From Polaribacter sp. (lineage in GTDB: Bacteria > Bacteroidota > Bacteroidia > Flavobacteriales > Flavobacteriaceae): a stretch of DNA of 64,000 nt. Both the position numbers and the translations under genes were made by a program. Location: assembly GCA_028343155.1 (NCBI GenBank), contig JAOLXX010000015.1:1-64000 (forward strand). The letters run 5' to 3'. Each line of letters starts with the position of its first letter. Positions within the stretch are counted from its first letter, which is position 1. Under the pieces are notes generated by a model. That model did not search any database. It was not told the DNA's origin and was given only the letters and a program-made list of their open reading frames with translations. Below are positions 39,942 to 55,748 of the stretch, piece by piece.

Positions 39942-42929
39942 CTATAAAGAAAAATTTAACCTTGCGAAAACATATCTTCCTGTAAACCCAAATTGAGAGG
40001 TTCTTCTAGAATATGGAAAAGAAGCATTCGATTGACTTCCTTCTCTATTTTCATCTGGATATACATCTAATAAATTATTTGCTCCAATAGATATGGATAA
40101 ACTTTCAGATATATTATTTGATATTATTAAATCAGTGATAATCTTTCCAGCATAAATCGCATCATTATTTACCGTAGCACCACTAACTCTTGCTTGTCCT
40201 GAAAACTCATCTGGATCTGTTACTTCTCCAAAATAAACATTTCTTAATAAAAATGTCCAGTTATCGTTATAAAGCGTATGTGTTAAATTCAATTTAGTTC
40301 TAGGTTGTGCAATTGTTAAAAATGCTTCTTCCTGACCATCAAAAAAGGCACTACTTAAACCAGCATCAGCAATTAAATCAGGAACATTAATGTTTGTAAT
40401 CTCTGTTTTTGAGAAAGTTGCCGACAAGCTATTGTTCAGTTTAAAATCTTTGAATGCATCAAATTTATATCCAGCAACAACATCAATACCTTGATTTTTA
40501 GTATCAATAGCATTTGCTAAAAACTGAGCCTTTCCTGCTCCTGCAGCATTAAAAATAGATTCTAAAACTGGGTCTCCACCATTGTCAAATTTACCTGAAA
40601 GAACAATTCGATCATCAATTGAAATTTGATATGCATCAACAGTTATTGTTAAACCACCTACTTTACCAGTAAATCCTAAACTTACACTTTGAGACGTTTC
40701 TTCTTTTAGCTTCCCTATTTTCAATAAACTTGCTGCTTGACTATCGTTCGTAAACAAGCCTACTTGTTCTGCAACACCTGCAGCATTAAAAACGGTACTA
40801 CTTCTACTAAAGAATTGTTGGTGTAAAGAAGGTGCTCTAAATCCTGTGTTTACAGCGCCTCTTACAGAAAAATTATCAGATAATTTCACTCTTGAAGCTA
40901 ATTTGTAATTGAACGTTTCCCCAAAATCAGAAAAGCTTTCAAAACGAGTTGCTAAACTTACTAAAAAGTTCTCTGTAACATCTGCTTCCACATCAAAATA
41001 AGTACCAATACTATTTCTAGTTTTGTCGGTTGCATTTTCAGGTGTAAAACCTCCAAATACTTGAGAAGTTCCATCAAGTGACTCTCCAAGAGCATTTGTT
41101 GCTCCTCCAACACCACCTACTGTTGGAATTCCATTGTTATCATAGGTAGTATACGAGTTTTCTTTTCCTGCAAAAACCTCAAAATTGTCTACTCTGTATT
41201 CTGCTCCAAAAGCAAGGTTTAAGCCCGCCCAAATATCTTCATTGTATTTACTGAAGTCTAAGTTTGTCGTGTTTTGAGAAAAAATATGCGATCCAGCACT
41301 AAAGTTAGAAGGTGAAGCCGCTTTTAAACTTGCATTACTCGTATTTACAATCGTATAAATAAAAGAATTTTGTCCGTAGGTATTAGAAAAGTCGATATCC
41401 CATCCGCTTTCAGTTTGTCCTTTAATTCCTACTGCAGCAGATTTATCTACAATATCCGATTGGATTCCTGGTAAAAACCCATTTGGATTAGAAGCAACAT
41501 TTGCTTTTGGTCTCCATGGCTCTCTTAAAAATCCAAATGCTAAACCTTGTCTATAACTGATGCCTCCAAAAGAATATACTTCCGCATTTTCTGAAACAGG
41601 CAAAGACAAATTAGCAAAGAATTTTCCTTCTCTTAATTTAGCAGTTCCTACTTTAAATCTAAAGTCATTTCTCTCTTGCCCTCTTAAAGCAAATTGCGCA
41701 TTATCCAAATCTTGATAAGAATCAAACTCTCCATAACTTTGGTCACGAACTATACCTTCCACATAATCTGAGTCTCCAACTTTACCACGACCCAATAGTG
41801 TAAGTAAATCTGCAGGTGAGGTAAAATCTAAAGCTGCAATAGCTCCTTGATCAATAGCACTTATATAATTTGTTCCAAGCAAAGCTGCACCAGCTTGATA
41901 GTCTGCTGCAGTCATGTCTGAAATAGGCGTTCCTTTTGAAGCTGTAAAAGCATTCTCTGCGGCATTCCAAACATCATATATTTGCTCTAAATTCGTTGCA
42001 TTTCTTGAGGCACGTTTTCTGATACCAAGCGATCCAGAGAAGTTGATGAATCCACCATTTTTTCCTATATCTAAACCATAATTGGCATCAATTTGAATTT
42101 TCTCTCCATCCATACCGCCGTCTTGGTGGTTACTTCCAGAAGAAACGTTCGCTCCAGTTGTTACAGATAAACTTAATGTATTTGTAGCATCTTGTAATAC
42201 AATGTTGATAACACCTGCAATGGCATCAGAACCATATTGTGCTGCGGCACCATCACGTAATACTTCAATTCTTTTAATTGCAGAAACGGGTATTGCATTC
42301 ATATCAGTACCAACGCTTCCGGCTCCAACAGTACCATTAATATTCATTAAGGAAGAATTATGTCTTCTTTTTCCATTAATTAAAACCAATACTTGATCTG
42401 GACCTAAACCTCTTAATGAAGCAGGATCAACGTGATCTGTTCCATCAGAAACTGTTTGTGTCTGTGAAGTGAAAGAGGGTGCAACATAGTTTAAAATTTC
42501 ATTTATTGATGTTTGCGGTCCACTAGTTGCCAATTCTGCAATATCAATAATATCTACAGGAACTGGTGAGTCAATTACAGTTCTGTTCTTGTTTCTAGAT
42601 CCAATAACAACGATCTCATCTAGCGAGTTGTCTTCACTAATAGTAACTGATAAATAAGCAATATCACTAACCGTTATTTCTTTGGTTTCAAATCCCATCG
42701 AGGATACAGTAAATGCAGTCGGTAAGCTTAATACATTAATCGAAAACTCTCCGGCATCATCAGATGTTGTTCCGTTAGAGGAATTTCCTTTTTCTACAAT
42801 ATTCACATAGGGCAAAGCGGCTCCTGATGAATCTGTTACTTTCCCTTTTATTGTCTGTGCTACCATTGTAAGCGGTAACAACATTAAAAAAAATACTACT
42901 AAAAAATTGAATAATTTCTTGTTTTTCAT
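39942..42929 (-). CDS. TonB-dependent receptor
   Basis: Outer-membrane active transporter, 995 residues. Signal peptide 1-24 (ending VAQ), then a carboxypeptidase-regulatory-like domain (TIKGKVTDSSGAALPYVNI), a plug domain with SLRGLGPDQVLVLINGKR and the ERIEVLRDGAAAQYGSDAIAGVINI-type segment (read as two motifs), and a large beta-barrel ending in FARLNFSL with a terminal aromatic-rich strand. No SusD partner follows, so it is not a standard polysaccharide locus. Substrate unknown. The upstream 283-base spacer holds an inverted repeat GTGTTAA/TTAACAC at 42951-42971. Confidence 0.93.
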   Translation of the reverse strand: MKNKKLFNFLVVFFLMLLPLTMVAQTIKGKVTDSSGAALPYVNIVEKGNSSNGTTSDDAGEFSINVLSLPTAFTVSSMGFETKEITVSDIAYLSVTISEDNSLDEIVVIGSRNKNRTVIDSPVPVDIIDIAELATSGPQTSINEILNYVAPSFTSQTQTVSDGTDHVDPASLRGLGPDQVLVLINGKRRHNSSLMNINGTVGAGSVGTDMNAIPVSAIKRIEVLRDGAAAQYGSDAIAGVINIVLQDATNTLSLSVTTGANVSSGSNHQDGGMDGEKIQIDANYGLDIGKNGGFINFSGSLGIRKRASRNATNLEQIYDVWNAAENAFTASKGTPISDMTAADYQAGAALLGTNYISAIDQGAIAALDFTSPADLLTLLGRGKVGDSDYVEGIVRDQSYGEFDSYQDLDNAQFALRGQERNDFRFKVGTAKLREGKFFANLSLPVSENAEVYSFGGISYRQGLAFGFLREPWRPKANVASNPNGFLPGIQSDIVDKSAAVGIKGQTESGWDIDFSNTYGQNSFIYTIVNTSNASLKAASPSNFSAGSHIFSQNTTNLDFSKYNEDIWAGLNLAFGAEYRVDNFEVFAGKENSYTTYDNNGIPTVGGVGGATNALGESLDGTSQVFGGFTPENATDKTRNSIGTYFDVEADVTENFLVSLATRFESFSDFGETFNYKLASRVKLSDNFSVRGAVNTGFRAPSLHQQFFSRSSTVFNAAGVAEQVGLFTNDSQAASLLKIGKLKEETSQSVSLGFTGKVGGLTITVDAYQISIDDRIVLSGKFDNGGDPVLESIFNAAGAGKAQFLANAIDTKNQGIDVVAGYKFDAFKDFKLNNSLSATFSKTEITNINVPDLIADAGLSSAFFDGQEEAFLTIAQPRTKLNLTHTLYNDNWTFLLRNVYFGEVTDPDEFSGQARVSGATVNNDAIYAGKIITDLIISNNISESLSISIGANNLLDVYPDENREGSQSNASFPYSRRTSQFGFTGRYVFARLNFSL

Positions 42930-43166
42930 TTTGATTGGGATTAAAGTTAAGTGTTAAACTATTGTTAACACTATCTAAATATATGCACATATATTAAAAA
43001 AACCTAATTAAATTAAATTTATTATAAAAAATAACTTATTTTTTTATTAATTTAACAATTACTCCATACAAGAAAAGAATGTTTCTACGGCCCTTTAGAA
43101 AAATATTTTTTTTTAACATACCAATACCTTTAACCTTGTTTTAACAAAATAATTTTGTTAAAATTG

Positions 43167-43174
43167 TAGCTTTG
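43167..43174 (+). promoter_or_regulatory. -7 promoter box for the Bat operon
   Basis: TAGCTTTG matches TAnnTTTG, 38 bases upstream of the moxR ATG. A TTG at the normal distance is not clear. Confidence 0.45.
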
Positions 43175-43212
43175 TTTCCACTTAAAAAATTAACACCTAA
43201 CACAATTATAAA

Positions 43213-44202
43213 ATGGATGTAGATGTAAGAGCTATTAATGAGAAAATTGAAAGAGAGAGTGCCTTTATAGATATACTTACTTTAGAAATGAATAAAGTAA
43301 TTGTTGGGCAAAAACAAATGATAGAAAGTTTGTTAATTGGATTGATTGGAAATGGACACATATTACTTGAAGGTGTTCCAGGACTTGCAAAAACATTAGC
43401 AATTAATACCTTGTCTAAAGCAGTACAAGCTAGTTTTAGTAGAGTTCAATTTACGCCAGATTTATTACCTGCAGATGTTGTTGGAACCATGATTTATAAC
43501 ATGAAAGAAAATGACTTCATGATTAAAAAAGGACCAATTTTCGCAAATTTTGTACTAGCAGATGAGATTAACAGAGCGCCAGCAAAAGTGCAATCTGCGT
43601 TATTAGAAGCAATGCAAGAACGTCAAATTACTATTGGAGATACTACTTTTAAGTTAGACGAACCCTTCTTAGTAATGGCAACTCAAAACCCTGTAGAGCA
43701 AGAAGGAACATACCCTTTACCAGAAGCGCAAGTAGATAGGTTCATGTTAAAAGTGGTAATTGATTATCCAAAGTTACAAGATGAGCAAATCATTATGCGT
43801 CAGAATTTATCTGGCGGATTTGCAACGGTAAATCCTGTTGTTTCTGTAGCAGAAATTTTAAGAGCAAGAGAGGTTGCTAATGAAGTTTATATGGACGAGA
43901 AAATCGAGAAATATATATTAGATATCATCTTTGCAACTCGTTATCCAGAAAAATATAATTTACCTCAATTAAAAGATCTAATCAGTTTTGGAGCTTCACC
44001 TCGTGGAAGTATTAACCTTGCAAAAGCTGCAAAATGTTATGCTTTTATCAAACGAAGAGGTTATGTTATACCAGAAGATGTTAGAGCTGTTGTTTTTGAT
44101 ATTTTACGTCACAGAATAGGAATTACTTATGAAGCTGAAGCTGAAAATGTAACTTCTGTAGACATTATCAACTCAATTATTAACGAAATTGAAGTACCTT
44201 AA
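43213..44202 (+). CDS. MoxR family AAA+ ATPase
   Basis: AAA+ chaperone-like ATPase, 329 residues. Walker A GVPGLAKT, Walker B with sensor ADEINRAPAKVQSALLEAMQE, sensor ATQNPVEQEGTYPLPEAQ and arginine finger VDRFM region are complete. MoxR ATPases act with von Willebrand A proteins; here it heads the Bat operon. The stop is followed directly by an octamer repeat array leading into the DUF58 gene. Confidence 0.95.
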   Translation: MDVDVRAINEKIERESAFIDILTLEMNKVIVGQKQMIESLLIGLIGNGHILLEGVPGLAKTLAINTLSKAVQASFSRVQFTPDLLPADVVGTMIYNMKENDFMIKKGPIFANFVLADEINRAPAKVQSALLEAMQERQITIGDTTFKLDEPFLVMATQNPVEQEGTYPLPEAQVDRFMLKVVIDYPKLQDEQIIMRQNLSGGFATVNPVVSVAEILRAREVANEVYMDEKIEKYILDIIFATRYPEKYNLPQLKDLISFGASPRGSINLAKAAKCYAFIKRRGYVIPEDVRAVVFDILRHRIGITYEAEAENVTSVDIINSIINEIEVP

Positions 44203-44207
44203 AATTG

Positions 44208-44285
44208 TTGAATCGTGGAATTGTTTAACTGTTGAAAAATAGATAAACATCCAATTAAACAAATACACAATTAAACGATTAGACA
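44208..44285. repeat. Octamer repeat array A (inverted halves, no ORF)
   Basis: Four forward 8-bp units (TTGAATCG, TGGAATTG, TTTAACTG, TTGAAAAA), a 12-base spacer, then four reverse-complement units (CAATTAAA, CAAATACA, CAATTAAA, CGATTAGA). The forward pattern is TNNAAYTG. The array fills the whole gap between moxR and the DUF58 gene, and the TTG start of the latter lies in the next unit. Confidence 0.75.
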
Positions 44286-45155
44286 TTGGATACAAAGGAA
44301 ATACTTAAAAAAGTTCGTAAAATAGAGATTAAGACAAGACGTTTGTCTGATCATATTTTTGGTGGTGAATATCATTCGTCATTCAAAGGACGAGGTATGA
44401 CTTTTTCTGAAGTAAGACAATATCAATTTGGAGATGATGTAAGGGCAATTGACTGGAATGTTACTGCGCGTTATAATGAACCTTATATTAAAATTTTTGA
44501 AGAAGAGCGTGAATTGACCATGATGCTTTTAGTTGATGTTTCTGGTTCGGAACTTTTTGGAACATCAACCCAATTTAAAAAAGAAACGGTTACAGAAATT
44601 GCAGCAACACTTGCTTTTTCTGCTACTCAAAATAATGATAAAGTGGGTTTGATCTTATTTTCTGATGACATAGAACTTTTTATTCCTCCAAAAAAAGGAA
44701 AAAGTCACGTTTTAAGAATTATTAGAGAATTGATTGAATTCAAACCAAAAAGTACAAAAACAAATATTGCAGGCGCTTTAAAATTTTTATCAAGTGTGAT
44801 GAAAAAAAAGGCAATTGTATTTATGCTATCCGATTTTATGGATGACGATTACGAAAAAACATTAAAAATTGCCGCAAAAAAACACGATTTAACGGGCATT
44901 AGAATCTATGACAAGCACGATGAAGAAATTCCTAATTTAGGAATGGTACCTATGTTAGATTCAGAAACTGGAAATGTTCAGTTGATAAACACCTCAGCAA
45001 ATTCTGTTAGAACAAATTATGCAAAAAATGCCGCCCGTTTGTCAGCCTATTATATAGGTATGTTTAAAAGAAGTGGCGCAGGAACGATCAATACAAGAGT
45101 TGATGAAAGTTACGTGAAAAAATTATTAGGCTATTTTAAACACAAAGGGAGATAA
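44286..45155 (+). CDS. DUF58 domain protein of the Bat operon
   Basis: Cytoplasmic 289-residue DUF58 protein with a von Willebrand A-like fold. DUF58 core: RQYQFGDDVRAIDWNVTAR followed by the MIDAS-type LLVDVSGSE. Such proteins regularly follow MoxR ATPases. The start is a TTG placed at the end of octamer array A; no other start lies before the conserved DTKEILKKVRKIEIKTRR helix. Confidence 0.92.
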   Translation: MDTKEILKKVRKIEIKTRRLSDHIFGGEYHSSFKGRGMTFSEVRQYQFGDDVRAIDWNVTARYNEPYIKIFEEERELTMMLLVDVSGSELFGTSTQFKKETVTEIAATLAFSATQNNDKVGLILFSDDIELFIPPKKGKSHVLRIIRELIEFKPKSTKTNIAGALKFLSSVMKKKAIVFMLSDFMDDDYEKTLKIAAKKHDLTGIRIYDKHDEEIPNLGMVPMLDSETGNVQLINTSANSVRTNYAKNAARLSAYYIGMFKRSGAGTINTRVDESYVKKLLGYFKHKGR

Positions 45156-45239
45156 AAGTCCATTTTAATCTTCCTAAGAGAGAAAATGCTCAGATGAAAT
45201 CTGCCTAAAAATAAGTAAAAATAAAAGTAATTTTATAAG

Positions 45240-46241
45240 TTGAAAAAAGACAATCCATATAAAAAGACTCAAAAGAGTAGAAAAGAAGTACACCTTAAAT
45301 ACTTTAGTTCCCTTGGAAAGGGTGTTAGAGAGCTCGGCTTTTTGTTTATTTTACTTACTTGTTTCGTTTCATTTTCACAAAATGAAATGGTAAAAGTAAC
45401 CATTGATACCACAAATATTAGAATTGGTGAGCAGTTCAATTTAAAAATTTGGATAGGTGAAACAAAAAATGTGATCCTACCAAAATTACAATTAAAAGGA
45501 TTAGAAATTGTTGATTCAACCAAGATAGACACCCTTAAAAATTCTTTAATTAGAAAATATATTTTAACTGGTTTTGATAGTGGTTCTTTTTACATTCCAC
45601 GCCAACAGATCTTTGTTAGAAACCAAGCTTTTTTAACAGATTCTTTATTGGTAAATGTTGCTACTATTGCTATTGACACTACCAAAATAAAAAAGTTTGC
45701 TATAAAATCTATTGAAAGTGAACCTTATATTTTTGATGATTTTAAAATGTACATTTACATACTATTAGCTGCCTTATCAATTATTGGTTTCTGGGTGTAT
45801 TGGTTTGTTATTAGAAAACAAGAAGAAGAAGAGGAAGTCGCAACTTATAGTACCTTACCTCCCTTCGAAGAGGCAATTTTTAGACTGAATGAATTGGATG
45901 AAAAACTATTGTGGCAAAACAATAAAATAAAAGAATATTATAGTGAATTAACTGAAATTGTACGCGGCTATATCGAACGAGAACTGAAAGTTCCTGCATT
46001 GGAAAGAACCACCGATGAAATAATAGAAACACTTAACAATTTTAAAAGTTCCCAGTCAATAACAACTTCAAAAGAAACAATTAAAAAACTGAAAGGATTA
46101 TTACAAGAAGCAGATTTAGTAAAATTTGCAAAATCTAAACCATTAGCTTTAGAAATAGAAGAAGATAGAAAAGACGCAGAAGATGTGGTAAATAATTTAA
46201 AACCTAAACCAATTATTGAAGAAGATGATGAATTGGAATAA
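45240..46241 (+). CDS. DUF4381-like membrane protein of the Bat operon
   Basis: Membrane protein of 333 residues in the place between DUF58 and batA where Bat operons carry a DUF4381-like gene. A hydrophobic signal segment (FLFILLTCFVSFSQ, ending near residue 46) leads to a beta-rich exported domain, a membrane helix (about 176-195) and a cytoplasmic helical domain with EYYSELTEIVRGYIERELKVPA. The start is a TTG. The 45-residue N-terminal extension contains sequence (KYFSSLGKGVRELG) apparently encoded by a dispersed repeat relic. The function is unknown; regulation of the vWA partners is inferred. Confidence 0.78.
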   Translation: MKKDNPYKKTQKSRKEVHLKYFSSLGKGVRELGFLFILLTCFVSFSQNEMVKVTIDTTNIRIGEQFNLKIWIGETKNVILPKLQLKGLEIVDSTKIDTLKNSLIRKYILTGFDSGSFYIPRQQIFVRNQAFLTDSLLVNVATIAIDTTKIKKFAIKSIESEPYIFDDFKMYIYILLAALSIIGFWVYWFVIRKQEEEEEVATYSTLPPFEEAIFRLNELDEKLLWQNNKIKEYYSELTEIVRGYIERELKVPALERTTDEIIETLNNFKSSQSITTSKETIKKLKGLLQEADLVKFAKSKPLALEIEEDRKDAEDVVNNLKPKPIIEEDDELE

Positions 46242-47235
46242 TTTTGAATTTTTAAACCCAGAGTTTTTATGGCTGCTGATATTAATTCCGCTATTAGCCA
46301 TTTGGTGTTTTTTTATTAGAAAAAAAGATGCTGCGCTTTTAACAATGTCAAGTATAAAAGGTTTTAAAGCAAACAGTTCTTTTTTACCTAAACTAAAACC
46401 ATTTTTATACCTACTCCGTTTAGTTGCTTTAGCGTTCTTATTTGTAGCATTAGCAAGACCAAGGAACGTTTCTGTTAGTAAAAAAACAAAAACAAATAGA
46501 GGAATCGATATTGTAATGGCAATAGATGTATCTGCAAGTATGCTGGCCAGAGATTTAAAACCAAACCGATTAGAAGCGCTTAAAAAAGTAGCTATAAATT
46601 TTGTTGATAGAAGACCAAATGACAGAATAGGAATTGTAGTTTATGCTGGCGAAAGTTTTACACAAACACCAATCACAAGTGATAAAGGCATCGTAAAACG
46701 CACGATTTCTGAGCTAAAATGGGGACAGTTAGAAGGTGGGACAGCTATTGGCATGGGATTGGGTTCTGCTGTAAATAGATTGAAAGAAAGTACTGCAAAA
46801 AGTAAAATTATTATTTTATTAACAGATGGAGTGAACAATTCTGGGAATATTGACCCAAGAACTGCTACAGAATTGGCTAAAGAATTGGAGATTAAAACCT
46901 ATACAATAGGAATAGGAACCAATGGAATGGCAGATTTTCCTTGGAGTAAAGATCCAAGAACGGGAAAATTGCAATTTCGAAAGCAACAGGTAGAAATTGA
47001 TGAAGCTTTGCTAAAAAAAATTGCTTCGGAAACAGCAGGGAAATATTTTAGAGCAACAGACAATACATCATTAAAAGAAATTTATGATGAAATTGACAGC
47101 CTTGAAAAAACAAATATTGAGGAATTTAAATATTATAATTATCAAGAAAAATATAGAATATTAGTCTTTTTTGCTCTTGGGTTATTAGTCTTCGAATTTA
47201 TTTTAAGGAATACAATTTTTAAGAGTTTTATATAG
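46228..47235 (+). CDS. batA: BatA, von Willebrand A membrane protein
   Basis: Membrane-anchored vWA protein, 335 residues: one helix near the N-terminus (about 9-30), a second at 57-75, a vWA domain with MIDAS motif DVSAS (DxSxS), and a C-terminal helix (ILVFFALGLLVFEFIL). The start overlaps the previous gene by 14 bases; the second of two adjacent ATG codons is chosen. Bat proteins form a periplasm-facing complex linked to stress or aerotolerance in Bacteroides and to virulence in other bacteria, but their mechanism is not settled. Confidence 0.9.
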   Translation: MNWNNFEFLNPEFLWLLILIPLLAIWCFFIRKKDAALLTMSSIKGFKANSSFLPKLKPFLYLLRLVALAFLFVALARPRNVSVSKKTKTNRGIDIVMAIDVSASMLARDLKPNRLEALKKVAINFVDRRPNDRIGIVVYAGESFTQTPITSDKGIVKRTISELKWGQLEGGTAIGMGLGSAVNRLKESTAKSKIIILLTDGVNNSGNIDPRTATELAKELEIKTYTIGIGTNGMADFPWSKDPRTGKLQFRKQQVEIDEALLKKIASETAGKYFRATDNTSLKEIYDEIDSLEKTNIEEFKYYNYQEKYRILVFFALGLLVFEFILRNTIFKSFI

Positions 47236-47241
47236 AAAATG

Positions 47242-47273
47242 TGTAATTGTTGAACTGTTTAATTGTGTAAATA
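47242..47273 (+). repeat. Octamer repeat array B, left of the four-helix gene
   Basis: Four forward units in perfect 8-bp register: TGTAATTG, TTGAACTG, TTTAATTG, TGTAAATA. The four-helix gene begins 10 bases later. No reverse half is present on this side. Confidence 0.75.
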
Positions 47274-47282
47274 TAGAAGAAG

Positions 47283-47648
47283 ATGTATGTTTTTTCATTT
47301 GAAAAACTGGAAGTTTGGAAAGAAGCTATTCAGTTTTCTAAAGATGTTTATAAAATTACTTCTACTTTTCCTGCTGATGAAAAATTTGGATTAGTGAGCC
47401 AAATTAGACGAGCTACAAATTCAATTGCAGCGAATTTAGCAGAAGGAACATCTAGAATTACTAACAAAGACAAAGCACATTTTACAACAATTGTTTTTAG
47501 TACAGCTATGGAAGTTTTAAACCATATAATACTATCAAAAGAACTAGAATATATTTCAGAAGAAGAATATTTAAAATTGAGAGAAAGAATTTATAAAATA
47601 TCAAACATGTTAAATGCATTAAGAAAATCACAATTGAAAAAGGTGTAA
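47283..47648 (+). CDS. Four-helix-bundle protein (23S rRNA intervening-sequence family)
   Basis: Small protein (121 residues) of the family first found in 23S rRNA intervening sequences. It carries the family signature FEKLEVWKEAIQFSKDVYK, then FGLVSQIRRATNSIAANLAEG. These proteins form pentameric barrels; related ones assist diversity-generating retroelements, though none is seen here. It sits between batA and batB, where it does not belong in other Bat operons. The flanking octamer repeats and the fact that its last two codons lie in array C suggest that it arrived as a unit. Function in this setting is unknown. Confidence 0.92.
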   Translation: MYVFSFEKLEVWKEAIQFSKDVYKITSTFPADEKFGLVSQIRRATNSIAANLAEGTSRITNKDKAHFTTIVFSTAMEVLNHIILSKELEYISEEEYLKLRERIYKISNMLNALRKSQLKKV

Positions 47649-47726
47649 TTGGGTAACTGTTAAATTGTTTAACTATAAGCAATACAATTTAACAATTACA
47701 CGATTTAACGATTAAACAAATACACG
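47644..47726. repeat. Octamer repeat array C, right of the four-helix gene
   Basis: Forward units TGTAATTG, GGTAACTG, TTAAATTG, TTTAACTA, a 9-base spacer, then reverse units CAATTTAA, CAATTACA, CGATTTAA, CGATTAAA, CAAATACA. It begins within the stop region of the four-helix gene and ends exactly against the batB ATG. TGTTAAATTGT and ACAATTTAACA form an 11-bp perfect inverted pair. Confidence 0.78.
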
Positions 47727-48773
47727 ATGTACCGTATAGAAGAACCAATTTATTTTTACTTTTTAACAATCATTCCAATAATGATTGTAGTGTTCCTGTT
47801 GGTTTTGTGGTGGAAAAAAAACACACAACGTAAATTTTCTGATATAGCTTTACTCCAAAAGTTAGCTCCAAATTCGTCAACGTTTAAATCGGTTTTAAAG
47901 TTGTTAATGTTCCTTTTAGGAATCGCTTTTTTAATCATTTCTTTGGTGAACCCTAAGATAGGAACCAAATTAAAAACAGTAAAAAGAGAAGGTGTTGATG
48001 TCGTATTTGCTTTGGATGTTTCCAAAAGTATGTTGGCAGAAGATATAGCGCCTAATCGATTAGAAAAAGCAAAACAAATCATCTCAAAAACCATTGATAA
48101 ATTAGGGTCAGATAGGGTTGGAATTATTATTTATGCAGGTAATTCTTATCCGCTTCTACCAATTACTACAGACCATGCAGCAGCACATATGTTTTTGCAA
48201 AATGCGAATCCGGATATGGTTTCTAGTCAAGGAACAGCTATAAATGAAGCATTAGAATTGGCAAAAACTTATTATAATAATGATGAACAAACCAATCGGT
48301 TTTTAATTATTATTTCTGATGGAGAAGACCATCAAGAAGAAACAAAACAGGTAGCACAAAATTTAGCCAACGAGGGAGTAAAAATCTATACAGTTGGAGT
48401 GGGGACAGAAAATGGTGGTCCAATCCCGATACGGTTAAACGGAGCGATGATTGGCTATAAAAAAGATAGGAAAGGTGAAACTATAATTACCAAACGTAAA
48501 CCAGAGATTTTAGAAGGAATTGCAGCTGCTGCAGATGGGGAATATATTGATGGAAATGTTACAGAAAAACCAGTAAAGGGAATTGCAGCTATTATTGCAA
48601 ATGCAGAAAAAAGCGAATTTGAAACCAAACAATTTTCAGATTATAAAGATCAGTTTCAATGGTTTTTAGGCATTGGTTTGTTCTTCTTAGTGATTGATGT
48701 TTTCTTATTTGATAAAAAAACGAAATGGTTAAGAAAGGTCGATTTATTTAATGAAGAAAAAACAAAAAAATAA
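47727..48773 (+). CDS. batB: BatB, von Willebrand A membrane protein
   Basis: Second vWA protein, 348 residues, similar in plan to BatA: membrane helices near the N-terminus (about 8-28 and 55-73), the vWA domain with MIDAS motif DVSKS in ALDVSKSMLAEDIAPNRLEK, and a C-terminal helix. The ATG directly follows octamer array C. It would pair with BatA in the inner membrane. The stop is one base away from the batC ATG. Confidence 0.9.
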   Translation: MYRIEEPIYFYFLTIIPIMIVVFLLVLWWKKNTQRKFSDIALLQKLAPNSSTFKSVLKLLMFLLGIAFLIISLVNPKIGTKLKTVKREGVDVVFALDVSKSMLAEDIAPNRLEKAKQIISKTIDKLGSDRVGIIIYAGNSYPLLPITTDHAAAHMFLQNANPDMVSSQGTAINEALELAKTYYNNDEQTNRFLIIISDGEDHQEETKQVAQNLANEGVKIYTVGVGTENGGPIPIRLNGAMIGYKKDRKGETIITKRKPEILEGIAAAADGEYIDGNVTEKPVKGIAAIIANAEKSEFETKQFSDYKDQFQWFLGIGLFFLVIDVFLFDKKTKWLRKVDLFNEEKTKK

Positions 48774-48774
48774 G

Positions 48775-49572
48775 ATGAAGAATTTACAATATATCCTTTT
48801 TGTTTTTGTGCTGTTATTTTCTTCCGAAGATATTTTAGCACAAAAAGATACAATTCGTTTACAACGTAAAGCAAGAAAATTATTACGCCAAGGAAATGAA
48901 TTGTATCAAAAAAAGCAATATACAGATGCATCTGTTGCTTATCAAAAATCACTGGGTAGTAATTCTAATTACAACAAGGCTAACTATAATCTTGGGAATG
49001 CATTCTATCAAAATAATAATTTTAAAGAAGCAATTCCTCAATATGAATTAACAGCAAAAGCGGCGAAGGATAAGTTCACAAAAGCAGCAGCATTTCATAA
49101 TCTTGGAAATGCTATGTTAGAATCTAAAAATTATCAAGGAGCTGTAGATGGATATAAAAACGCATTAAGAAATAATCCTAATGATGATGAAACGCGTTAT
49201 AATTTGGCAGTTGCTCAGAAGTTATTAAAAAAAGAACAACAAGATAAGAAAGACAAAAAAGATAAGAATAATAAGGACAAGAAAGACAAAGAAGATAAGA
49301 GTAAAGACCAAAATAAAGAGAAGAAAGACGGAGAGGATAAGGATAAAAAAGACGACAAAAATAAAGACGGTAACGACAAGGATAAAAACAAAGATCCAAA
49401 AAAGGACGAGCAGAAAAACAAACAGAAACCGAAGCCACAGCAAGGAAGAATGACTCCTCAACAAATTAAACAACTTTTAGAAAGTTTAAACAATGAAGAG
49501 AAGAAAACCCAAAAGAAGATAAATGCTAAAAAAACGAAGGGCAAAAAAGTAAAACAAGAAAAAGATTGGTAG
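48775..49572 (+). CDS. batC: BatC, TPR protein with Lys/Asp-rich tail
   Basis: Exported TPR protein, 265 residues. Signal peptide (LQYILFVFVLLFSSEDILA), then three TPR units between about 35 and 150 (GNELYQKKQYTDASVAYQKS and so on), then about 75 residues made almost only of Lys, Asp, Glu and Asn (the DKKDKEDKSKDQNK type), and a basic end. The tail is low complexity and likely disordered. The start at 48775 removes eight codons that overlap batB. Codons in the tail are repetitive, hence the false open frames seen on the opposite strand. Confidence 0.88.
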   Translation: MKNLQYILFVFVLLFSSEDILAQKDTIRLQRKARKLLRQGNELYQKKQYTDASVAYQKSLGSNSNYNKANYNLGNAFYQNNNFKEAIPQYELTAKAAKDKFTKAAAFHNLGNAMLESKNYQGAVDGYKNALRNNPNDDETRYNLAVAQKLLKKEQQDKKDKKDKNNKDKKDKEDKSKDQNKEKKDGEDKDKKDDKNKDGNDKDKNKDPKKDEQKNKQKPKPQQGRMTPQQIKQLLESLNNEEKKTQKKINAKKTKGKKVKQEKDW

Positions 49573-49749
49573 AAAAAGCCCATCTTTACTGTTTCCAATT
49601 TCAACTTCGTTTACTGCAAGCTCAGTAAAAAAAACTTATACTTGTAAAATGACTAAAAATTGTAAATAAAATTGATTGTACCTAAATTTAAAAAGAACAA
49701 TAGAAATCAAAAGTGTTTCTCCTCTTTGGTGAAGTTAAGAGATATTTTT

Positions 49750-51495
49750 ATGATTTTATTTTGTCTGCTGCTTGGTCTTACTTTCAGTGCTCAAGAGGCA
49801 ACTTTAACGGCAAAAGTGAGTAAAAATAAGTTGGGCTTAAATCAGCGTTTACGAATTGAATTTTCTATAAACAAACAAGGAGGAGATGATTTTTTACCAC
49901 CTAAATTCACGAATTTTAAAGTAGTTGGAGGTCCAAGTCAGTCTGTGAGTCAGTCATGGATAAATGGCAAAGTCAGCTTTTCTCAATCTTACACCTACAT
50001 TATTCAACCTCAAAGAAAAGGGGAGCTTACCATAGGATCCGCAAGAATAAAAGTAGCAGGAAAAAAGATTCTATCTGAACCTATAAAAATTATTGTTTTA
50101 GACGCAGTAGCGCTCCCAAAAAACCCAAATGACCCAAACTATATTGCGCAACAAAACATCCATTTGGTTGCAGAGGTCTCTAAATCAAAACCTTATGTAG
50201 GAGAAGGAGTTTATGTTGAGTATAGGCTCTATGTTAGTGAAAACATTACTATTTATAATGCTGGCGTAACTGAAGCTCCACAGTATAATGGCTTTTGGAA
50301 TCAAGTAATTAAGATCAATGGATATCCATTAAAAAAAGGCAAATATAATGGCGAGGACTATAATTATTTCGTTATGCAAAAGGCCTTATTAGTACCAACA
50401 AAAACAGGGAAACTAACGATAGATCCAATGAAGATGGATATTGTAATTGGAGTTCCTACAGGGAGAGCCGATTTTTTTGGAAATGTAATTACAAGAAATA
50501 TTACAAGAGAATTTTCATCAACTAGAAAGAATATACGGCCTAGGGCGCTTCCTTTGGAGGGAAAACCAGCAAACTTTAATGGGGCTGTTGGTTCATTTGA
50601 ATTTAATGTATCTCTAAGCAAAGAGGTTTTAAAAGCAAATGAAAGTTCTCAAATAAAAATAGCCATCTCTGGAAAAGGAAATTTAAAATTATTTGAATTA
50701 CCAGAAATTACGACCCCTATTGAATTAGAAAAATACCAACCAGAAAGGAAAGAGAAAATCAAGATAAACACCAGTGGAATCTCAGGTATTGTCTCAGATT
50801 TATATACTGTTGTGCCTCAATATAAAGGGAAATATAAAATACCTTCTGTTGCTTTCTCCTATTTTAATCCAAAGGAAAGAAAATATCATACAATTAACAC
50901 GGATGATTTTTTTGTGAATGTTTTAGAAGGAAAAGAATTAAAACCGGTAGTGGATAAAAATACTTTAATAAAACAAGCAGTTGTATCCTCAGGAAAGAAC
51001 TTTAGATACATTCAAAAGACAAGAAATTTAAAACCTACAAAAGGAAATGACTTCTTTAAATCTAACTTATTTTATATTTTATTGTTACTGCCTTTACTTA
51101 CAATTCCAATAGGTGTTTTCATCATCAAAAAGAATGAAGAAAGAAGTAATGATTTTATTGGTAATAAGCTTCGAAAAGCAGAAAAATTGGCAAAAAAATA
51201 TCTCTCTGAGGCACAAAAACAATTGGGTAAAAAAGAAGCGTTTTATGAAGCTTTGGAGCGTGCATTACATAATTATTTAAAAGCAAAATTGGGAATTGAA
51301 ACTGCAGATATTAGTAAGGAAAAAATTACTGAAATTTTAGAAAAAAGAAACATCAATTCAAAGACAATTCATCAGTTTATAGACGTTTTAAAACATTCAG
51401 ATTTTGCGCGTTATTCGCCAGTTACAAATACTGAAATGGAAAAAGAATTTGAAACGGCAAAACAAGTTATTGTAGCGTTAGATAAACAATTATAA
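49750..51495 (+). CDS. batD: BatD, large exported protein of the Bat operon
   Basis: BatD protein of 581 residues. The start is the ATG before ILFCLLLGLTFSAQ, a signal peptide; the longer frame from 49672 adds 26 codons that look like a repeat relic and is not used. The mature part has the family pattern TAKVSKNKLGLNQRLRIEFSIN, then YVGEGVYVEYRLYVS, with several immunoglobulin-like beta domains. A membrane helix (about 440-460) leads to a cytoplasmic helical domain with YEALERALHNYLKAKLGIE. It is expected to bridge the periplasm and inner membrane. Confidence 0.9.
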   Translation: MILFCLLLGLTFSAQEATLTAKVSKNKLGLNQRLRIEFSINKQGGDDFLPPKFTNFKVVGGPSQSVSQSWINGKVSFSQSYTYIIQPQRKGELTIGSARIKVAGKKILSEPIKIIVLDAVALPKNPNDPNYIAQQNIHLVAEVSKSKPYVGEGVYVEYRLYVSENITIYNAGVTEAPQYNGFWNQVIKINGYPLKKGKYNGEDYNYFVMQKALLVPTKTGKLTIDPMKMDIVIGVPTGRADFFGNVITRNITREFSSTRKNIRPRALPLEGKPANFNGAVGSFEFNVSLSKEVLKANESSQIKIAISGKGNLKLFELPEITTPIELEKYQPERKEKIKINTSGISGIVSDLYTVVPQYKGKYKIPSVAFSYFNPKERKYHTINTDDFFVNVLEGKELKPVVDKNTLIKQAVVSSGKNFRYIQKTRNLKPTKGNDFFKSNLFYILLLLPLLTIPIGVFIIKKNEERSNDFIGNKLRKAEKLAKKYLSEAQKQLGKKEAFYEALERALHNYLKAKLGIETADISKEKITEILEKRNINSKTIHQFIDVLKHSDFARYSPVTNTEMEKEFETAKQVIVALDKQL

Positions 51496-51530
51496 CTTGA
51501 TTTTAACTGTCTTTTCTGTTAGGTTTTCCA

Positions 51531-51585
51531 GACCTTGTAGATAAAAGTAAACAAATACCTTCAAGGCTAAAAAACCTTGTAGAAT
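51531..51585. repeat. Short direct repeat between batD and batE
   Basis: CCTTGTAGA occurs twice (51533-51541 and 51575-51583), with a CCTTCAAGG palindrome between. The pattern looks like a degraded copy of a dispersed palindromic repeat, but it is too short to name. Confidence 0.4.
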
Positions 51586-51605
51586 TTTTAATATAGATTC
51601 TTAAA

Positions 51606-52364
51606 ATGAAAAAAATATTATTTTTAATATTAATAATAGCAAGTTCCGTTTCTGCTCAAAACGTGGATAGCTTATTTGTTTCTGCCAATAACTCATATAA
51701 AGAGGGCAATTTTGAAACCGCTATCGAAAAATATAAAAAGATAGAAAGCCAAGGTTTCGAAGCCTCCGAATTGTATTTTAATTTAGGAAATTCTTACTAT
51801 AAACTCAACAAAGTTGGTCCATCGATTTATTATTATGAAATGGCTTTGAAATTGAATCCTTTAAATGAAGATGTAATAAATAATTTAGTATTTGTAAAAC
51901 GTTTCGCTTTAGACAATATTGAAAAATTACCACAAACTGTATTGCAAAGGTTCAACAAAAATTACTTACAAAAATTATCTTACAATCAATGGGCAATAGT
52001 TGTAGTCGTGCTTTCAATAATCGGAAGTTTACTGTTTTTACTCTTTTATTTTGCTAAAGTTCCATCAAAAAAAAGAGCCTATTTTATAACAAGTATTCTG
52101 AATTTTTTCTTTTTAATTTGTGTTCTTTTTATCACTTACAATCAATATGCTTTTTCGAAAAATAATACAGAAGCAATTGTATTTGCAGTAAAAACAGAGA
52201 TTAGAAATGCGCCAACTTTAAATTCTGAAGAAATTTTCACTTTACATGAAGGTACAAAAGTTTTTGTTTTAGATTCGGTTGATAAATGGAAAAAAATTAA
52301 AATTGCTGATGGTAAATTGGGTTGGATTCTTGCGAATGACCTAAAACTTTTAGATAATTTTTAG
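51606..52364 (+). CDS. batE: BatE, TPR/SH3 membrane protein
   Basis: Last Bat gene, 252 residues. Signal peptide 1-17 (ILFLILIIASSVSAQ), two TPR units (SANNSYKEGNFETAIEKYKK and ELYFNLGNSYYKL), two membrane helices at about 125-150 and 158-180, and a C-terminal bacterial SH3 domain (IRNAPTLNSEEIFTLHEGTKV to GWILANDLK). This domain order is the usual BatE plan. Confidence 0.88.
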   Translation: MKKILFLILIIASSVSAQNVDSLFVSANNSYKEGNFETAIEKYKKIESQGFEASELYFNLGNSYYKLNKVGPSIYYYEMALKLNPLNEDVINNLVFVKRFALDNIEKLPQTVLQRFNKNYLQKLSYNQWAIVVVVLSIIGSLLFLLFYFAKVPSKKRAYFITSILNFFFLICVLFITYNQYAFSKNNTEAIVFAVKTEIRNAPTLNSEEIFTLHEGTKVFVLDSVDKWKKIKIADGKLGWILANDLKLLDNF

Positions 52365-52397
52365 TTTTTATTTTACTACTATTTCAAAAACCTTTCC

Positions 52398-52405
52398 TAT
52401 TTTTG
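52398..52405 (+). promoter_or_regulatory. -7 promoter box downstream of the Bat operon
   Basis: TATTTTTG, 19 bases before the TTG start of the small membrane protein gene; it separates the Bat operon from the SulP region. Confidence 0.5.
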
Positions 52406-52424
52406 TTGTACATAAAAAAATACA

Positions 52425-52727
52425 TTGAGAAACTCTATTTCACTTTTTTTCACCTTACTATTTTCACTTTTATTGATTACCCCTACAGTAATTAGTTTGG
52501 TTGATGATTCTCAGGACCTTGCTTTTTTTCTTGACATGAATGAAGAAGAAGAAAACAAAGGAAAAGAAGCTACAAAAGATTTAGAAATTAAGATTTACTC
52601 CTCAGAAAAATTTGAGACTTTATTCTTAAATAGAATTCAAAAGAAAAAAAATGTACGTTTTCAATCTAAAAACTACACTTCAGAATACCAAAAAAATACC
52701 ACACCTCCCCCCGAATTTTTGATATAA
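52425..52727 (+). CDS. Small membrane-anchored protein, unknown
   Basis: Not recognised. It has 100 residues, a strongly hydrophobic N-terminal helix (ISLFFTLLFSLLLITPTVI), then an acidic stretch (DMNEEEENKGKEA) and a basic C-terminal half. The TTG start follows a good promoter box. It is the first gene before the SulP-carbonic anhydrase run and could be part of that transcript, 89 bases upstream. It has a normal base composition and looks like a real gene. Confidence 0.65.
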   Translation: MRNSISLFFTLLFSLLLITPTVISLVDDSQDLAFFLDMNEEEENKGKEATKDLEIKIYSSEKFETLFLNRIQKKKNVRFQSKNYTSEYQKNTTPPPEFLI

Positions 52728-52816
52728 TAGATTCGTTTATTAAGACAAAATCAATCATTTATAAATTTCAAAAAACTCTAAATATTTTTATTTAGAATAA
52801 AAATACTTTTTTTTAT

Positions 52817-54397
52817 ATGTTTAAATATATCAAAAACGATTTACCTGCAAGTATTGTAGTGTTTTTCGTAGCATTACCTTTGTGTTTAGGTATTGCTTTA
52901 GCAAGTGGTGCACCTCTTTTTTCTGGATTAATTGCAGGGATTATTGGTGGTATTGTAGTGGGTGCTTTAAGTGGTTCAAAAATTGGAGTAAGTGGTCCAG
53001 CAGCTGGCTTGGCGGCGATTGTATTGACCGCAATCGGCTCAGTAGGAGGGTATGAAAACTTTTTAGTTGCCGTTGTATTAGGAGGCATTATTCAAATAAT
53101 TTTTGGCTTTTTAAAAGCAGGAATTATTGGGTATTATTTTCCCTCATCCGTAATCAAAGGTATGCTAACAGGAATCGGGATTATAATTATTCTAAAACAA
53201 ATTCCTCACTTTTTTGGATATGATGCGAATCCCGAAGGAGATTTTGCTTTCTTTCAAGTTGATGGAGGAAATACATTTTCAGAAATTTTCAAATCTTTAA
53301 ATAATATTAGTTTAGGTTCTACTATTATTGGTTTAATAGGATTGGGTATTCTCTTACTTTGGAGTAGTGTTTTATCAAAAAAAGGAAAAATTTTCAATTT
53401 AATTCAGGGACCTTTAGTAGCCGTTGTTGCAGGTATTGTATATTTCTTTGTTACAGATTCGGAATCAAAATATGGCATTAGTGCTTCTCATTTAGTAAGT
53501 GTTCCAGTTCCTGATAATTTAGATTCTTTTTTGGGACAATTTAGTTTTCCAAATTTTAATGCCTTAACAAATCCTGAAATTTGGGTTATTGCCTTTACAA
53601 TTGCATTGGTCGCTAGTTTAGAAACTTTATTGTGTGTAGAAGCTACGGACAAAATAGACCCTCATAAAAATGTTACGCCTACGAATAGAGAATTATTGGC
53701 ACAAGGAACTGGAAATATCCTTTCTGGATTAATTGGTGGTTTGCCAATTACACAAGTAATTGTAAGAAGTTCTGCAAACATTCAATCTGGAGGAAGAAGT
53801 AAAATGTCTACAATAATACATGGTTTCTTTTTATTAATTTCTATAATTTTAATTCCTTCCTTATTAAATAAGATTCCTTTATCCGTTTTAGCAGCAGTTC
53901 TTTTAATTGTAGGTTATAAATTAGCAAAGCCTGGTTTATTTCTGCAGATGTATAGAATCGGGTGGAAGCAATCCATTCCTTTTACAGTAACTGTCTTAGG
54001 AATTGTTTTTATAGATTTGCTCTATGGAATAGGATTAGGATTGGCAGTAGGTATCGTTGTCATTCTTATTAAGAGTTTTCAAAACTCTCACTTTTTACAT
54101 ATTGAAGATAAAAGTAACGGAGAGCATAAAATAAAAATGACGCTCGCAGAAGAAGTTACTTTTTTTAACAAAGGAGCTATTTTAAAAGAATTAGATAATT
54201 TACCAAAAGCTACTTTCTTAGAAATTGATGTAAGAAAAACGAGGTATTTGGATAATGACATTATAGAAATTTTAGATGATTTCACCGTTAAAGCAAAAGA
54301 AAGAGATATCAATATTAAAATTATTTCTGAACGTGGAACCATAGAAAATCCGAAAAGTTTTATTGAGTTCTTTAAATTAAGTCCAAAAACAGCATAA
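52817..54397 (+). CDS. SulP family anion transporter
   Basis: Integral membrane transporter of 526 residues with about 11-14 helices and a C-terminal STAS domain (about 440-520). The first helices read PASIVVFFVALPLCLGIALASGAP, diagnostic of SulP. SulP proteins carry sulfate, or bicarbonate with Na+ in the BicA group. The carbonic anhydrase gene 11 bases downstream points to bicarbonate here. This is an inference from context, as substrates cannot be told from sequence alone. Confidence 0.92.
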   Translation: MFKYIKNDLPASIVVFFVALPLCLGIALASGAPLFSGLIAGIIGGIVVGALSGSKIGVSGPAAGLAAIVLTAIGSVGGYENFLVAVVLGGIIQIIFGFLKAGIIGYYFPSSVIKGMLTGIGIIIILKQIPHFFGYDANPEGDFAFFQVDGGNTFSEIFKSLNNISLGSTIIGLIGLGILLLWSSVLSKKGKIFNLIQGPLVAVVAGIVYFFVTDSESKYGISASHLVSVPVPDNLDSFLGQFSFPNFNALTNPEIWVIAFTIALVASLETLLCVEATDKIDPHKNVTPTNRELLAQGTGNILSGLIGGLPITQVIVRSSANIQSGGRSKMSTIIHGFFLLISIILIPSLLNKIPLSVLAAVLLIVGYKLAKPGLFLQMYRIGWKQSIPFTVTVLGIVFIDLLYGIGLGLAVGIVVILIKSFQNSHFLHIEDKSNGEHKIKMTLAEEVTFFNKGAILKELDNLPKATFLEIDVRKTRYLDNDIIEILDDFTVKAKERDINIKIISERGTIENPKSFIEFFKLSPKTA

Positions 54398-54408
54398 AAA
54401 ATAAAATT

Positions 54409-55038
54409 ATGAAAGCACAAACAAAAGAAACACAAGCAGCTATAAATCCAGAAATAGCAATCGATTTATTAAAAGAAGGAAATAAAAGATTTAAAAGCAA
54501 TACGGCTATAAAAAGAGATTTATTAGATCAAGTTACGGATACAAGTACGGGCCAATATCCCTTTGCAACCATTTTAAGTTGTATTGATTCTAGAGTCTCA
54601 TCAGAACTCATATTTGACCAAGGAATCGGAGATATTTTTAGTGCAAGAGTGGCTGGAAATTTTGTGAATGAAGATATTTTAGGAAGTATGGAATTTGCCT
54701 GTAAATTGGCAGGTACTAAAGTAATTGTCGTTTTAGGCCATACTGCCTGTGGCGCTGTAAAAGGTGCTTGTGATGATGCTAAATTAGGTAATTTAACGGC
54801 TTTGTTAAGTAAAATAAAGCCTGCAGTAAAAGCAGTTACAGCACCAACAGACTCAAATTTAAGAAACTCAAGTAATATTGATTTTGTGAATAAAGTCGCT
54901 GAAAAAAATGTAATTATGACGCTCGATACTATTCGTGCTCAAAGTCCAGTTCTAAAAGAAATGGAAGAGGAAGGAAGCATAAAAATTGTAGGTGCTATGT
55001 ACGACATTAAAGAAGGTACTGTAACTTTTTATGAATAG
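54409..55038 (+). CDS. Beta-class carbonic anhydrase
   Basis: Zinc enzyme (209 residues) that interconverts CO2 and bicarbonate. The zinc ligands are Cys58 in SCIDSRVSS (with Asp60-Arg62 dyad), His111 and Cys114 in LGHTACGAV. No signal peptide, so it is cytoplasmic. Placed between two SulP transporters; together they suggest bicarbonate uptake and conversion, for instance to feed anaplerotic carboxylation. Confidence 0.95.
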   Translation: MKAQTKETQAAINPEIAIDLLKEGNKRFKSNTAIKRDLLDQVTDTSTGQYPFATILSCIDSRVSSELIFDQGIGDIFSARVAGNFVNEDILGSMEFACKLAGTKVIVVLGHTACGAVKGACDDAKLGNLTALLSKIKPAVKAVTAPTDSNLRNSSNIDFVNKVAEKNVIMTLDTIRAQSPVLKEMEEEGSIKIVGAMYDIKEGTVTFYE

Positions 55039-55040
55039 AA

Positions 55041-55682
55041 ATGAGAGTCTTATTTTTAATGATAACCTTTTTACTAATTTCTCCAAAAATTACTGCTCAA
55101 AGCAGTAATTTGGGGAATTGGTTAATTTATATTGGGAGTAAAAAATTAAACTCCAAATGGGATGTTCATCATGAAGTCCAATATAGAAATTACAATGCTA
55201 TTGATGATTTAGAACAATTAATTTTAAGGACTGGTCTTGGGTATAATCTTACCGAAAACACAAATGTTTTAATGGGTTACGGATATATACTTTCGAAAAA
55301 TTATATAGGAGAAACAACTCATAAAACTAGTATAAATGAACATCGAATTTTTCAACAAGTAATTACTAAACAAAAAATCGGTGTCCTAAAATTAAGTCAT
55401 CGATATCGGTTTGAACAGCGTTTTGTAGAAGCTGATTTTAAAACAAGATTTAGATATTTTCTGGGAATACAAATCCCTATAAAATCTTCTAAATATTATA
55501 TTTCTGGATATAATGAAATTTTTCTTAATGGCCAATCAAATATCTTTGATAGAAACAGAGTTTATGGAGGACTTGGGTATCAATTGAAGAAAAATATGAG
55601 ACTAGAATTGGGGTATATGAATCAACTATTTGAAGCTTCAAACAGAGATCAAATCAACTTAATTACATTTATTAATTTTTAA
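55041..55682 (+). CDS. DUF2490 outer-membrane beta-barrel protein
   Basis: Exported protein of 213 residues with signal peptide (LFLMITFLLISPKITAQ) and the DUF2490 pattern: LGNWLIYIGSKKLNSKWDVHHEVQYR, then alternating aromatic strands ending in INLITFINF, typical of an outer-membrane barrel. It begins two bases after the carbonic anhydrase stop and so is translationally linked. A porin or receptor-like role in carbon uptake is possible but not shown. Confidence 0.82.
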   Translation: MRVLFLMITFLLISPKITAQSSNLGNWLIYIGSKKLNSKWDVHHEVQYRNYNAIDDLEQLILRTGLGYNLTENTNVLMGYGYILSKNYIGETTHKTSINEHRIFQQVITKQKIGVLKLSHRYRFEQRFVEADFKTRFRYFLGIQIPIKSSKYYISGYNEIFLNGQSNIFDRNRVYGGLGYQLKKNMRLELGYMNQLFEASNRDQINLITFINF

Positions 55683-55748
55683 AACTTTTAATCGTTAGAA
55701 TATAACTCCCACCCTACTTTAGAATAGAATAGTTACCTTAGTTCAAAA

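Follow-up and report, generated by a model that had tools for sequence, protein, structure and literature searches.

The intervening sequences (IVSs) in the 23S rRNA of Coxiella, Leptospira, and other bacteria carry an open reading frame (ORF) of the PF05635 family (23S rRNA intervening-sequence protein, "S23") in the loop of a stem, have short tandem repeats next to it, and are patchily distributed. In Coxiella, tandem heptamers (GACAGAT) stand just before the ORF, the stem is 28 bp long, and the IVS is excised by RNase III; the function of the S23 protein and the origin of 23S IVSs are described as unknown (PMC4990558). The S23 domain also occurs in 16S and 23S rRNA insertions of candidate phyla radiation bacteria (PMC11270868). 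Here, we describe an S23 gene that is likewise enclosed by inverted repeats able to form a stem, in this case octamer arrays, and that lies not in an rRNA gene but between batA and batB, in a 64,000-nucleotide stretch of Polaribacter sp. DNA (GCA_028343155.1, contig JAOLXX010000015.1, positions 1 to 64,000, forward strand; hereafter the window). This is probably an IVS-type hairpin element, that is, the design of the 23S rRNA IVS living in operon spacers and moving rarely. Unlike the rRNA IVSs, elements of this kind are placed in protein operons, occupy many junctions, come in several subfamilies per genome, and have solo counterparts without the ORF; the unit found here measures 8 nt.

Other described systems are related in part. 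In REP/RAYT systems (repetitive extragenic palindromes with a REP-associated tyrosine transposase), one gene is flanked by palindromic repeats, and many solo palindromes lie elsewhere. S23 likewise stands as one gene between repeats with solo hairpins elsewhere. It differs in that its family comprises neither nucleases nor transposases, its repeats are arrays of units instead of a single palindrome, its gene lies in sense orientation in operons, and the place taken in REP/RAYT by a Y1 HuH transposase gene is held here by PF05635. Cyanobacterial short tandemly repeated repetitive (STRR) sequences are arrays, usually of 7-bp repeats, that are capable of forming hairpins, for example, between hupS and hupL, and are of unknown function according to their description, the available part of which names no protein (PMC2670836). 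The bat arrays work like STRRs but have an 8-nt unit and a flavobacterial host; a link between STRRs and S23 was not found in our literature search. Heptamer arrays of GGGAATC in Xanthomonas and GGGGA(C/T)T in Nostoc are intergenic, mostly between aligned ORFs; arrays paired in inverted orientation number 70 and 75 in two genomes of Xanthomonas and are few in Nostoc, and the term S23 has 0 occurrences in the available part of that paper (PMC4692102). The same literature search, which had little reach into subscription journals, gave no recognized report of S23 genes that lie outside rRNA between inverted arrays of short units. A PF05635 gene in a hairpin within rRNA was known already; the operon form with its unit-specific arrays, solo hairpins, and patchy exchange did not turn up in this search.

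An S23 gene between inverted octamer arrays in the bat operon

The element fills the gap between its upstream host gene, batA (46216..47235, + strand; an ORF for a VWA domain protein, which was the second VWA match in the batB search), and its downstream host gene, batB (47727..48773, +; an ORF with a match in 56 of 59 relatives). It opens with a forward octamer array (47242..47265, +) of three exact units, TGTAATTG, TTGAACTG, and TTTAATTG, which continues in degenerate form to about 47273 and has a position weight matrix (PWM) run score of 32. The S23 gene (47283..47648, +) is followed by a right forward array (47644..47675, +; PWM run score 26) and a right reverse array (47685..47724, −; PWM run score 45) that ends 2 nt before batB. 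The stop codon of the gene (47646–47648) falls inside the first right-hand octamer, and its final codons therefore lie within the right array. A single degenerate reverse octamer (CAATTGAA; 47631..47638, −) inside the end of the ORF was recognized from the sequence and from relatives; the related elements include several whose reverse array begins at this site and encodes the S23 C terminus. Array A, a second pair of forward (44208..44231, +) and reverse (44252..44283, −) octamers, lies between moxR and a DUF58 gene. It is a solo hairpin with no ORF and may be an acceptor site still vacant, what a deletion left behind, or a solo insertion that arose independently. The coordinates agree with the layout that an earlier note on this DNA had given for both places.

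The same note had called the inserted gene a four-helix gene of the 23S-IVS type, and this was borne out: the 121-residue protein matches PF05635 (E 3.8e-34, 117.5 bits against a cut-off of 33.8) and TIGR02436 (E 9.1e-32, 109.5 bits against 24), and a relative of solved structure, 2GSC (E 2.1e-15), is the product of the Xanthomonas S23 gene XCC0516. The median ratio of nonsynonymous to synonymous substitution rates among S23 genes is 0.26 (1780 pairs), which indicates purifying selection and therefore that the protein is of use, be it to the element or to the host. Avd of diversity-generating retroelements (DGRs) is a distant homolog of S23, as noted before (PMC10053308). An Avd gene would be expected to score above the cut-off and to have an adjacent reverse transcriptase; the matches of this protein stay below it (bAvd, E 9.6e-5, 23.3 bits against 40; DGR Avd, E 2.2e-5, 24.7 bits against 80), no reverse transcriptase was recognized by eye among the ORFs of 40000–56000, which were not subjected to a family search, and no template or variable repeat was seen beside the gene in the window.

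The strict three-octamer pattern has six matches in the genome of the window, all at the left array, the right array, and array A, and the same pattern read backwards has none, which rules out that the arrays are chance AT-rich repeats. These own-genome counts are limited by an assembly completeness of 81%; the closest named loci are from Polaribacter. A looser 16-mer has 22 matches in the window against 11.0 (standard deviation 3.1) in shuffled sequences, with 0 of 100 shuffles reaching 22. Within 43000–50000, there is no rRNA match, the element being placed between batA and batB and not inside an rRNA gene, and the sole match to a known RNA family is below threshold (Cyano-1, E 0.12). The phage collection searched gave no match, so that carriage by a phage is unsupported. 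The unit contains no reverse transcriptase and, as stated in the earlier note, no transposase.

Both the minimum free energy fold and the centroid fold predict that the left array pairs with the distal right array and thereby encloses the S23 ORF. The right hairpin (47640–47730) is predicted to be more stable than all of its shuffled versions (z −3.57, 0 of 200 as good), and array A folds with a z score of −2.19 (5 of 200 shuffles as good).

A counterpart within rRNA was found on a plasmid of Azospirillum lipoferum. Here, an S23 ORF for which no feature is annotated (locus L313, positions 1390–1854) lies inside a 23S rRNA gene (LSU_rRNA_bacteria match), in sense orientation, between 36-nt inverted arrays of 7-nt units that no shuffle matched (0 of 500). 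Since this rRNA element has an inverted heptamer stem, operon and rRNA elements are of one design.

Orientation and inverted arrays across S23 genes

S23 genes were collected in four samples: a named sample of 80 loci found using the S23 protein of the window (82 genes scored for octamers), a hidden Markov model (HMM) sample of the better-scoring PF05635 matches listed from 59 relatives and the genome of the window (99 entries representing 96 distinct genes, of which two entries without full flanks were dropped and 97 scored), a check sample of the next 20 S23 genes beyond these, and a phylum-wide sample consisting of the single best match from each of 30 genomes. Among 177 distinct genes, mostly from Flavobacteriaceae, 174 lie in sense orientation between two codirectional genes; of the three others, two have no neighbor in the stretch covered, and one has a reverse 70-residue ORF downstream. 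Control gene triplets from the same loci are codirectional in 134 of 198 cases. The check sample agrees, with all 18 genes that have both neighbors being in sense. The genes occupy 47 distinct junctions, some with one neighbor in common; among them are junctions assigned by eye to suf, fad, fol, cys, moa, trp, and bat.

Inverted arrays were scored by comparing the 5′ spacer of each gene with the reverse complement of its own 3′ spacer; eight of the 177 genes, lacking usable spacers or two forward neighbors, were left out (n = 169). The mean score was 29.7, compared with 17.8 for the spacer of another element, 15.5 for shuffled spacers, and 18.7 for 33 control genes. The phylum-wide sample gave 31.3 versus 15.2 (30 loci), with 21 of 30 scoring at least 24, and the check sample gave 24.1 versus 15.7. 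In the non-octamer class, the own 3′ spacer beats 95% of foreign ones in 60% of the genes (n = 85). Five named loci with scores of no more than 140 fall into this class, three or more of them being damaged or diverged octamer-site copies, and the proportion is the same 60% without the named loci (n = 80).

Plasmids carry S23 genes as well. A tblastn search gave 25 places, of which 13 were analyzed, 12 of them annotated. At nine of the 12 annotated loci, the gene is in sense with both neighbors, and at 10, the own-array match was reached by at most three of 200 shuffles. Cyanobacterial plasmids have S23 genes with inverted arrays in operons of clustered regularly interspaced short palindromic repeat (CRISPR) systems (L307, L308, and L309; cmr2|cmr3 and cas6|cas4), as well as S23 genes at other sites. 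These arrays look like STRRs, and by our own reading that is what they are.

The repeat unit follows the protein subfamily

Octamer arrays belong to one S23 subfamily. The HMM sample contains 10 genes of this subfamily among the matches listed, one per genome, and all 10 have octamer arrays, nine of them on both sides in the expected directions, while L026 passes the threshold just at its 5′ side; octamer arrays are absent from all 87 remaining scored entries. The check sample contains neither octamers nor octamer-type S23 genes. In the named sample, both arrays were found in 58 of 82 genes and at least one in 76. A tie between octamers and PF05635 as a whole was rejected, as the other subfamilies carry arrays of their own units, such as GCAGTA, TAACTGA, AATTACGA, and TAGGGAT, which by eye occupy the same positions. 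The earlier note had held that unrelated flanks at batA|batB in close relatives, or family members without arrays, would speak against a unit that moves between arrays; relatives with the gene at that junction have octamer flanks, and the subfamilies that lack octamers have arrays nonetheless.

The link holds across junctions. For pairs of genes at different junctions, the 6-mer similarity of the spacers rises from 0.06 at 30 to 40% protein identity to 0.28 above 70% (9000 of 13,006 pairs drawn). Among 60 genomes, eight have both an octamer-type S23 gene and at least three strict array matches, two have the gene only, two have the matches only, and 48 have neither (Fisher p = 7e-7, with the arrays of the element itself included and relatedness uncorrected).

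As an observation apart from these comparisons, G051, the genome of L026, leads the 60 genomes with 88 strict octamer-array matches, ahead of G029 with 26, which looks like a burst.

Gain, loss, and exchange

The 30 junctions of either kind inspected in genomes of the genus could be read in 26 cases for batA|batB and in 18 cases for moxR|DUF58; in the remaining four and 12, the start codon was not found. The earlier note had taken batA and batB to be normally adjacent. This is true of nine of the 26 junctions, where the gap is 0 to 5 nt, but 11 have gaps of 13 to 100 nt, and six hold an S23 gene. The comparison of sister strains that the note had suggested thus gave clean empty junctions alongside filled ones, with the element cleanly missing from sister species that have a gap of 0 to 5 nt. 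In a BatB+DUF58 tree of the 26 genomes, G013, whose junction is filled, groups with G021 (2-nt gap), and G009, also filled, groups with G024 (0-nt gap), and the presence of S23 at batA|batB changed at least four times.

The tree of S23 also conflicts with that of its neighbors. For 22 batA|batB loci (six of 28 were omitted as short or interrupted), approximately unbiased (AU) tests reject the BatA+BatB tree for S23 and the S23 tree for BatA+BatB, with log-likelihood differences of 158.7 and 333.7, respectively. Between L028 and L131, S23 differs by 29%, and BatA and BatB differ by 9 to 11%. The S23 unit is thus gained, lost, or exchanged, one or the other, at a fixed address.

Movement to new addresses is infrequent. 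On a tree of 167 S23 genes (seven of 174 were omitted as short or interrupted), 47 site labels require at least 50 changes, the smallest possible number being 46, which implies that moves are rare and inheritance mostly vertical; this tree is built from few columns and has 45 of its 164 inner branches open. Octamer-type S23 genes are nevertheless found at several junctions in different genera. The earlier note had proposed that the ORF with one forward array moves or spreads between arrays. It was right in that gene and arrays change address and come and go, as seen from the several junctions, the clean absences, the tree conflict, and the solo hairpins; it was wrong about the unit, which is usually forward array, ORF, and reverse array, and the behavior is rare and not specific to octamers.

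Solo hairpins

Forty array regions away from octamer-type S23 genes were inspected, and in 17 of these (18 pairs), a forward array is followed by a reverse array within 400 nt. The opposite order was seen in three cases (L178, L184, and L214), each with arrays 353 nt apart and a weak partner inside coding sequence. By eye, the 18 readable moxR|DUF58 spacers include octamers in G000, a CAGT type in G021 and G009, a TTAGC type in G015, G005, and G011, and a AATTATCA type in G022, G027, G017, G020, and G025. The TTAGC-type spacers are only weakly self-complementary (scores of 12 to 18, no shuffle control), and it is therefore unsure whether they should be called hairpins. Four of the longer batA|batB gaps (G005, G020, G025, and G028) likewise contain self-complementary sequence, built from other units (scores of 26 to 32, no shuffle control).

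Some solo hairpins can be connected with a particular S23 subfamily. The AAGTTATA-type hairpins at batA|batB (G005, G020, and G028) are most like the flanks of a single S23 subfamily (L022, L122, L124, and L127) that occupies a different operon and is present in the same three genomes. At a junction identified by eye as lying upstream of obgE, G034 (L213) carries a solo octamer hairpin and L113 an S23 element.

A proposed hairpin element at the RNA level and its alternatives

These results suggest a design in which an S23 gene sits in the loop of a stem formed by inverted arrays of short units (approximately 6 to 9 nt) and the whole is inserted in sense into a transcript, here filling the stop-to-start spacer of the bat operon transcript. 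The element would be read along with its host operon and would probably need no promoter of its own, because its sense orientation is near-universal. In the RNA, the 5′ array is predicted to pair with the distal 3′ array around the ORF, and by analogy with the 23S IVSs, the stem could then be cut, probably by RNase III; such a cut in an operon spacer would be cheap since each cistron remains whole. S23 would be a protein of the element itself, which purifying selection maintains and which would probably bind its cognate array as RNA or DNA, as may be expected from the way in which the array type follows the protein subfamily. On rare occasions, another spacer would receive the complete unit or just a solo hairpin lacking the ORF, an outcome that is visible in the junctions compared above. 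The little harm that RNA cuts would do in rRNA and operon spacers, together with the sense rule and the stem, points to an element that lives at the RNA level with its host transcript.

Several observations weigh against this interpretation. Seven of the 80 named S23 copies stop before codon 105 (L039, L041, L053, L108, L110, L112, and L116; L113 was not counted, as its match merely begins at residue 30), so that S23 is dispensable at least at times, and several of these copies are still flanked by arrays. G001 and G021 are rich in arrays and have no octamer-type S23 gene, and G020 and G022 have the gene with one strict array match each. The own-array score is below 24 in 29% of S23 genes, in about three of 10 phylum-wide, and in nine of the 20 genes of the check sample, three of which have no 3′ spacer under the ORF calls used; gene calls in the genomes of the relatives came from our own ORF heuristic. 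In the octamer subfamily, the own array pair is matched no better than foreign pairs (median rank 0.34), and a specific match within each octamer element was thus not borne out, as all of them share one unit grammar. The fold of the whole element is modest (z −1.84, 5 of 100 shuffles as good). The orientation rule has exceptions outside the order (L278 and L305, with a reverse downstream ORF) and on plasmids (L311 and L316 antisense; L318 with a reverse downstream gene), inverted arrays are not significant at L318 (101 of 200 shuffles) and L319 (13 of 200), and two of the 30 phylum-wide copies are located in coding genes. Finally, for most moxR|DUF58 solo hairpins, the closest S23 flanks among those fetched are from other genomes, and a same-genome rule is unsupported.

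We considered whether S23 could instead be a post-transcriptional regulator of the host, with the arrays as its binding sites, the flanking arrays serving autoregulation, and the solo hairpins marking a regulon. A regulator would fit the single copy of octamer-type S23 found in all 10 sampled genomes that have it, the purifying selection, and the presence of solo arrays in operons of metabolism, among them hem, trp, arg, and etf (named by eye from protein sequence). This reading is rather unlikely, however, given that occupancy of the junctions is patchy between close species, that different unit types stand at one junction across species, that the S23 gene is found in different operons in different genera, and that arrays are kept without the protein in the two array-rich genomes just mentioned.

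It is quite doubtful that the arrays are hairpins born by slippage that gather in operon spacers, where S23 genes merely survive best and take no part in making or moving them. Solo hairpins of several unit types exist without S23, several of them without a close S23 flank in the same genome, and the heptamer arrays of Xanthomonas and Nostoc have been described without S23 (PMC4692102, in the part available). Against slippage, the unit type tracks S23 relatedness even across junctions, octamers go with a single subfamily, and the non-octamer arrays fit their own partners as specifically as reported above.

A conventional nonautonomous transposon, or an element of the REP kind, that carries S23 as a passenger and depends on a transposase encoded elsewhere and acting in trans would agree with the clean empty junctions, with the forward-before-reverse polarity of the solo pairs, and with the precedent of REP/RAYT systems, in which a single gene is accompanied by many palindromes (compare PMC3733652), but is very improbable, as unit sequence and length differ by subfamily, which one transposase would not explain (no cross-genome transposase search was made), and as no fixed terminal sequence or target duplication, as in insertion sequences or miniature inverted-repeat transposable elements, was seen by eye at the 26 readable batA|batB junctions, filled and empty, which were not searched systematically.

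The interpretation as an IVS-type hairpin element would offer one frame for S23 proteins, 23S rRNA IVSs, and STRR arrays, may unite several repeat families that have long lacked an explanation, and would add a class of elements that colonize housekeeping operons without a recognizable recombinase. More tentatively, S23 and inverted short-unit arrays might form one large class of mobile elements borne by RNA hairpins, in which each S23 subfamily would recognize a unit of its own and spread its arrays, with or without the gene, into any transcript in which a cut is tolerated. Besides 23S rRNA and operon spacers, these targets could now and then include coding genes that stay open in a second frame, and the products of this class would comprise rRNA IVSs, cyanobacterial STRRs, Xanthomonas heptamers, and flavobacterial octamers.

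Two further observations were made. At L280:1061-3316 and L302:1133-3316, both on the minus strand of their loci, an S23 element lies in a DNA-methylase gene (PF01555) whose frame is open through the entire element, S23 being read in another frame. Thirty-six plasmid records match the L302 part, none over 80% or more of the query, and the ten listed consist of two pieces covering 59 to 73%, as if the element were missing. In the window, a short tandem repeat with periods of 33 and 9 nt (49232–49329) encodes a segment rich in Lys and Asp in the protein whose gene follows batB.
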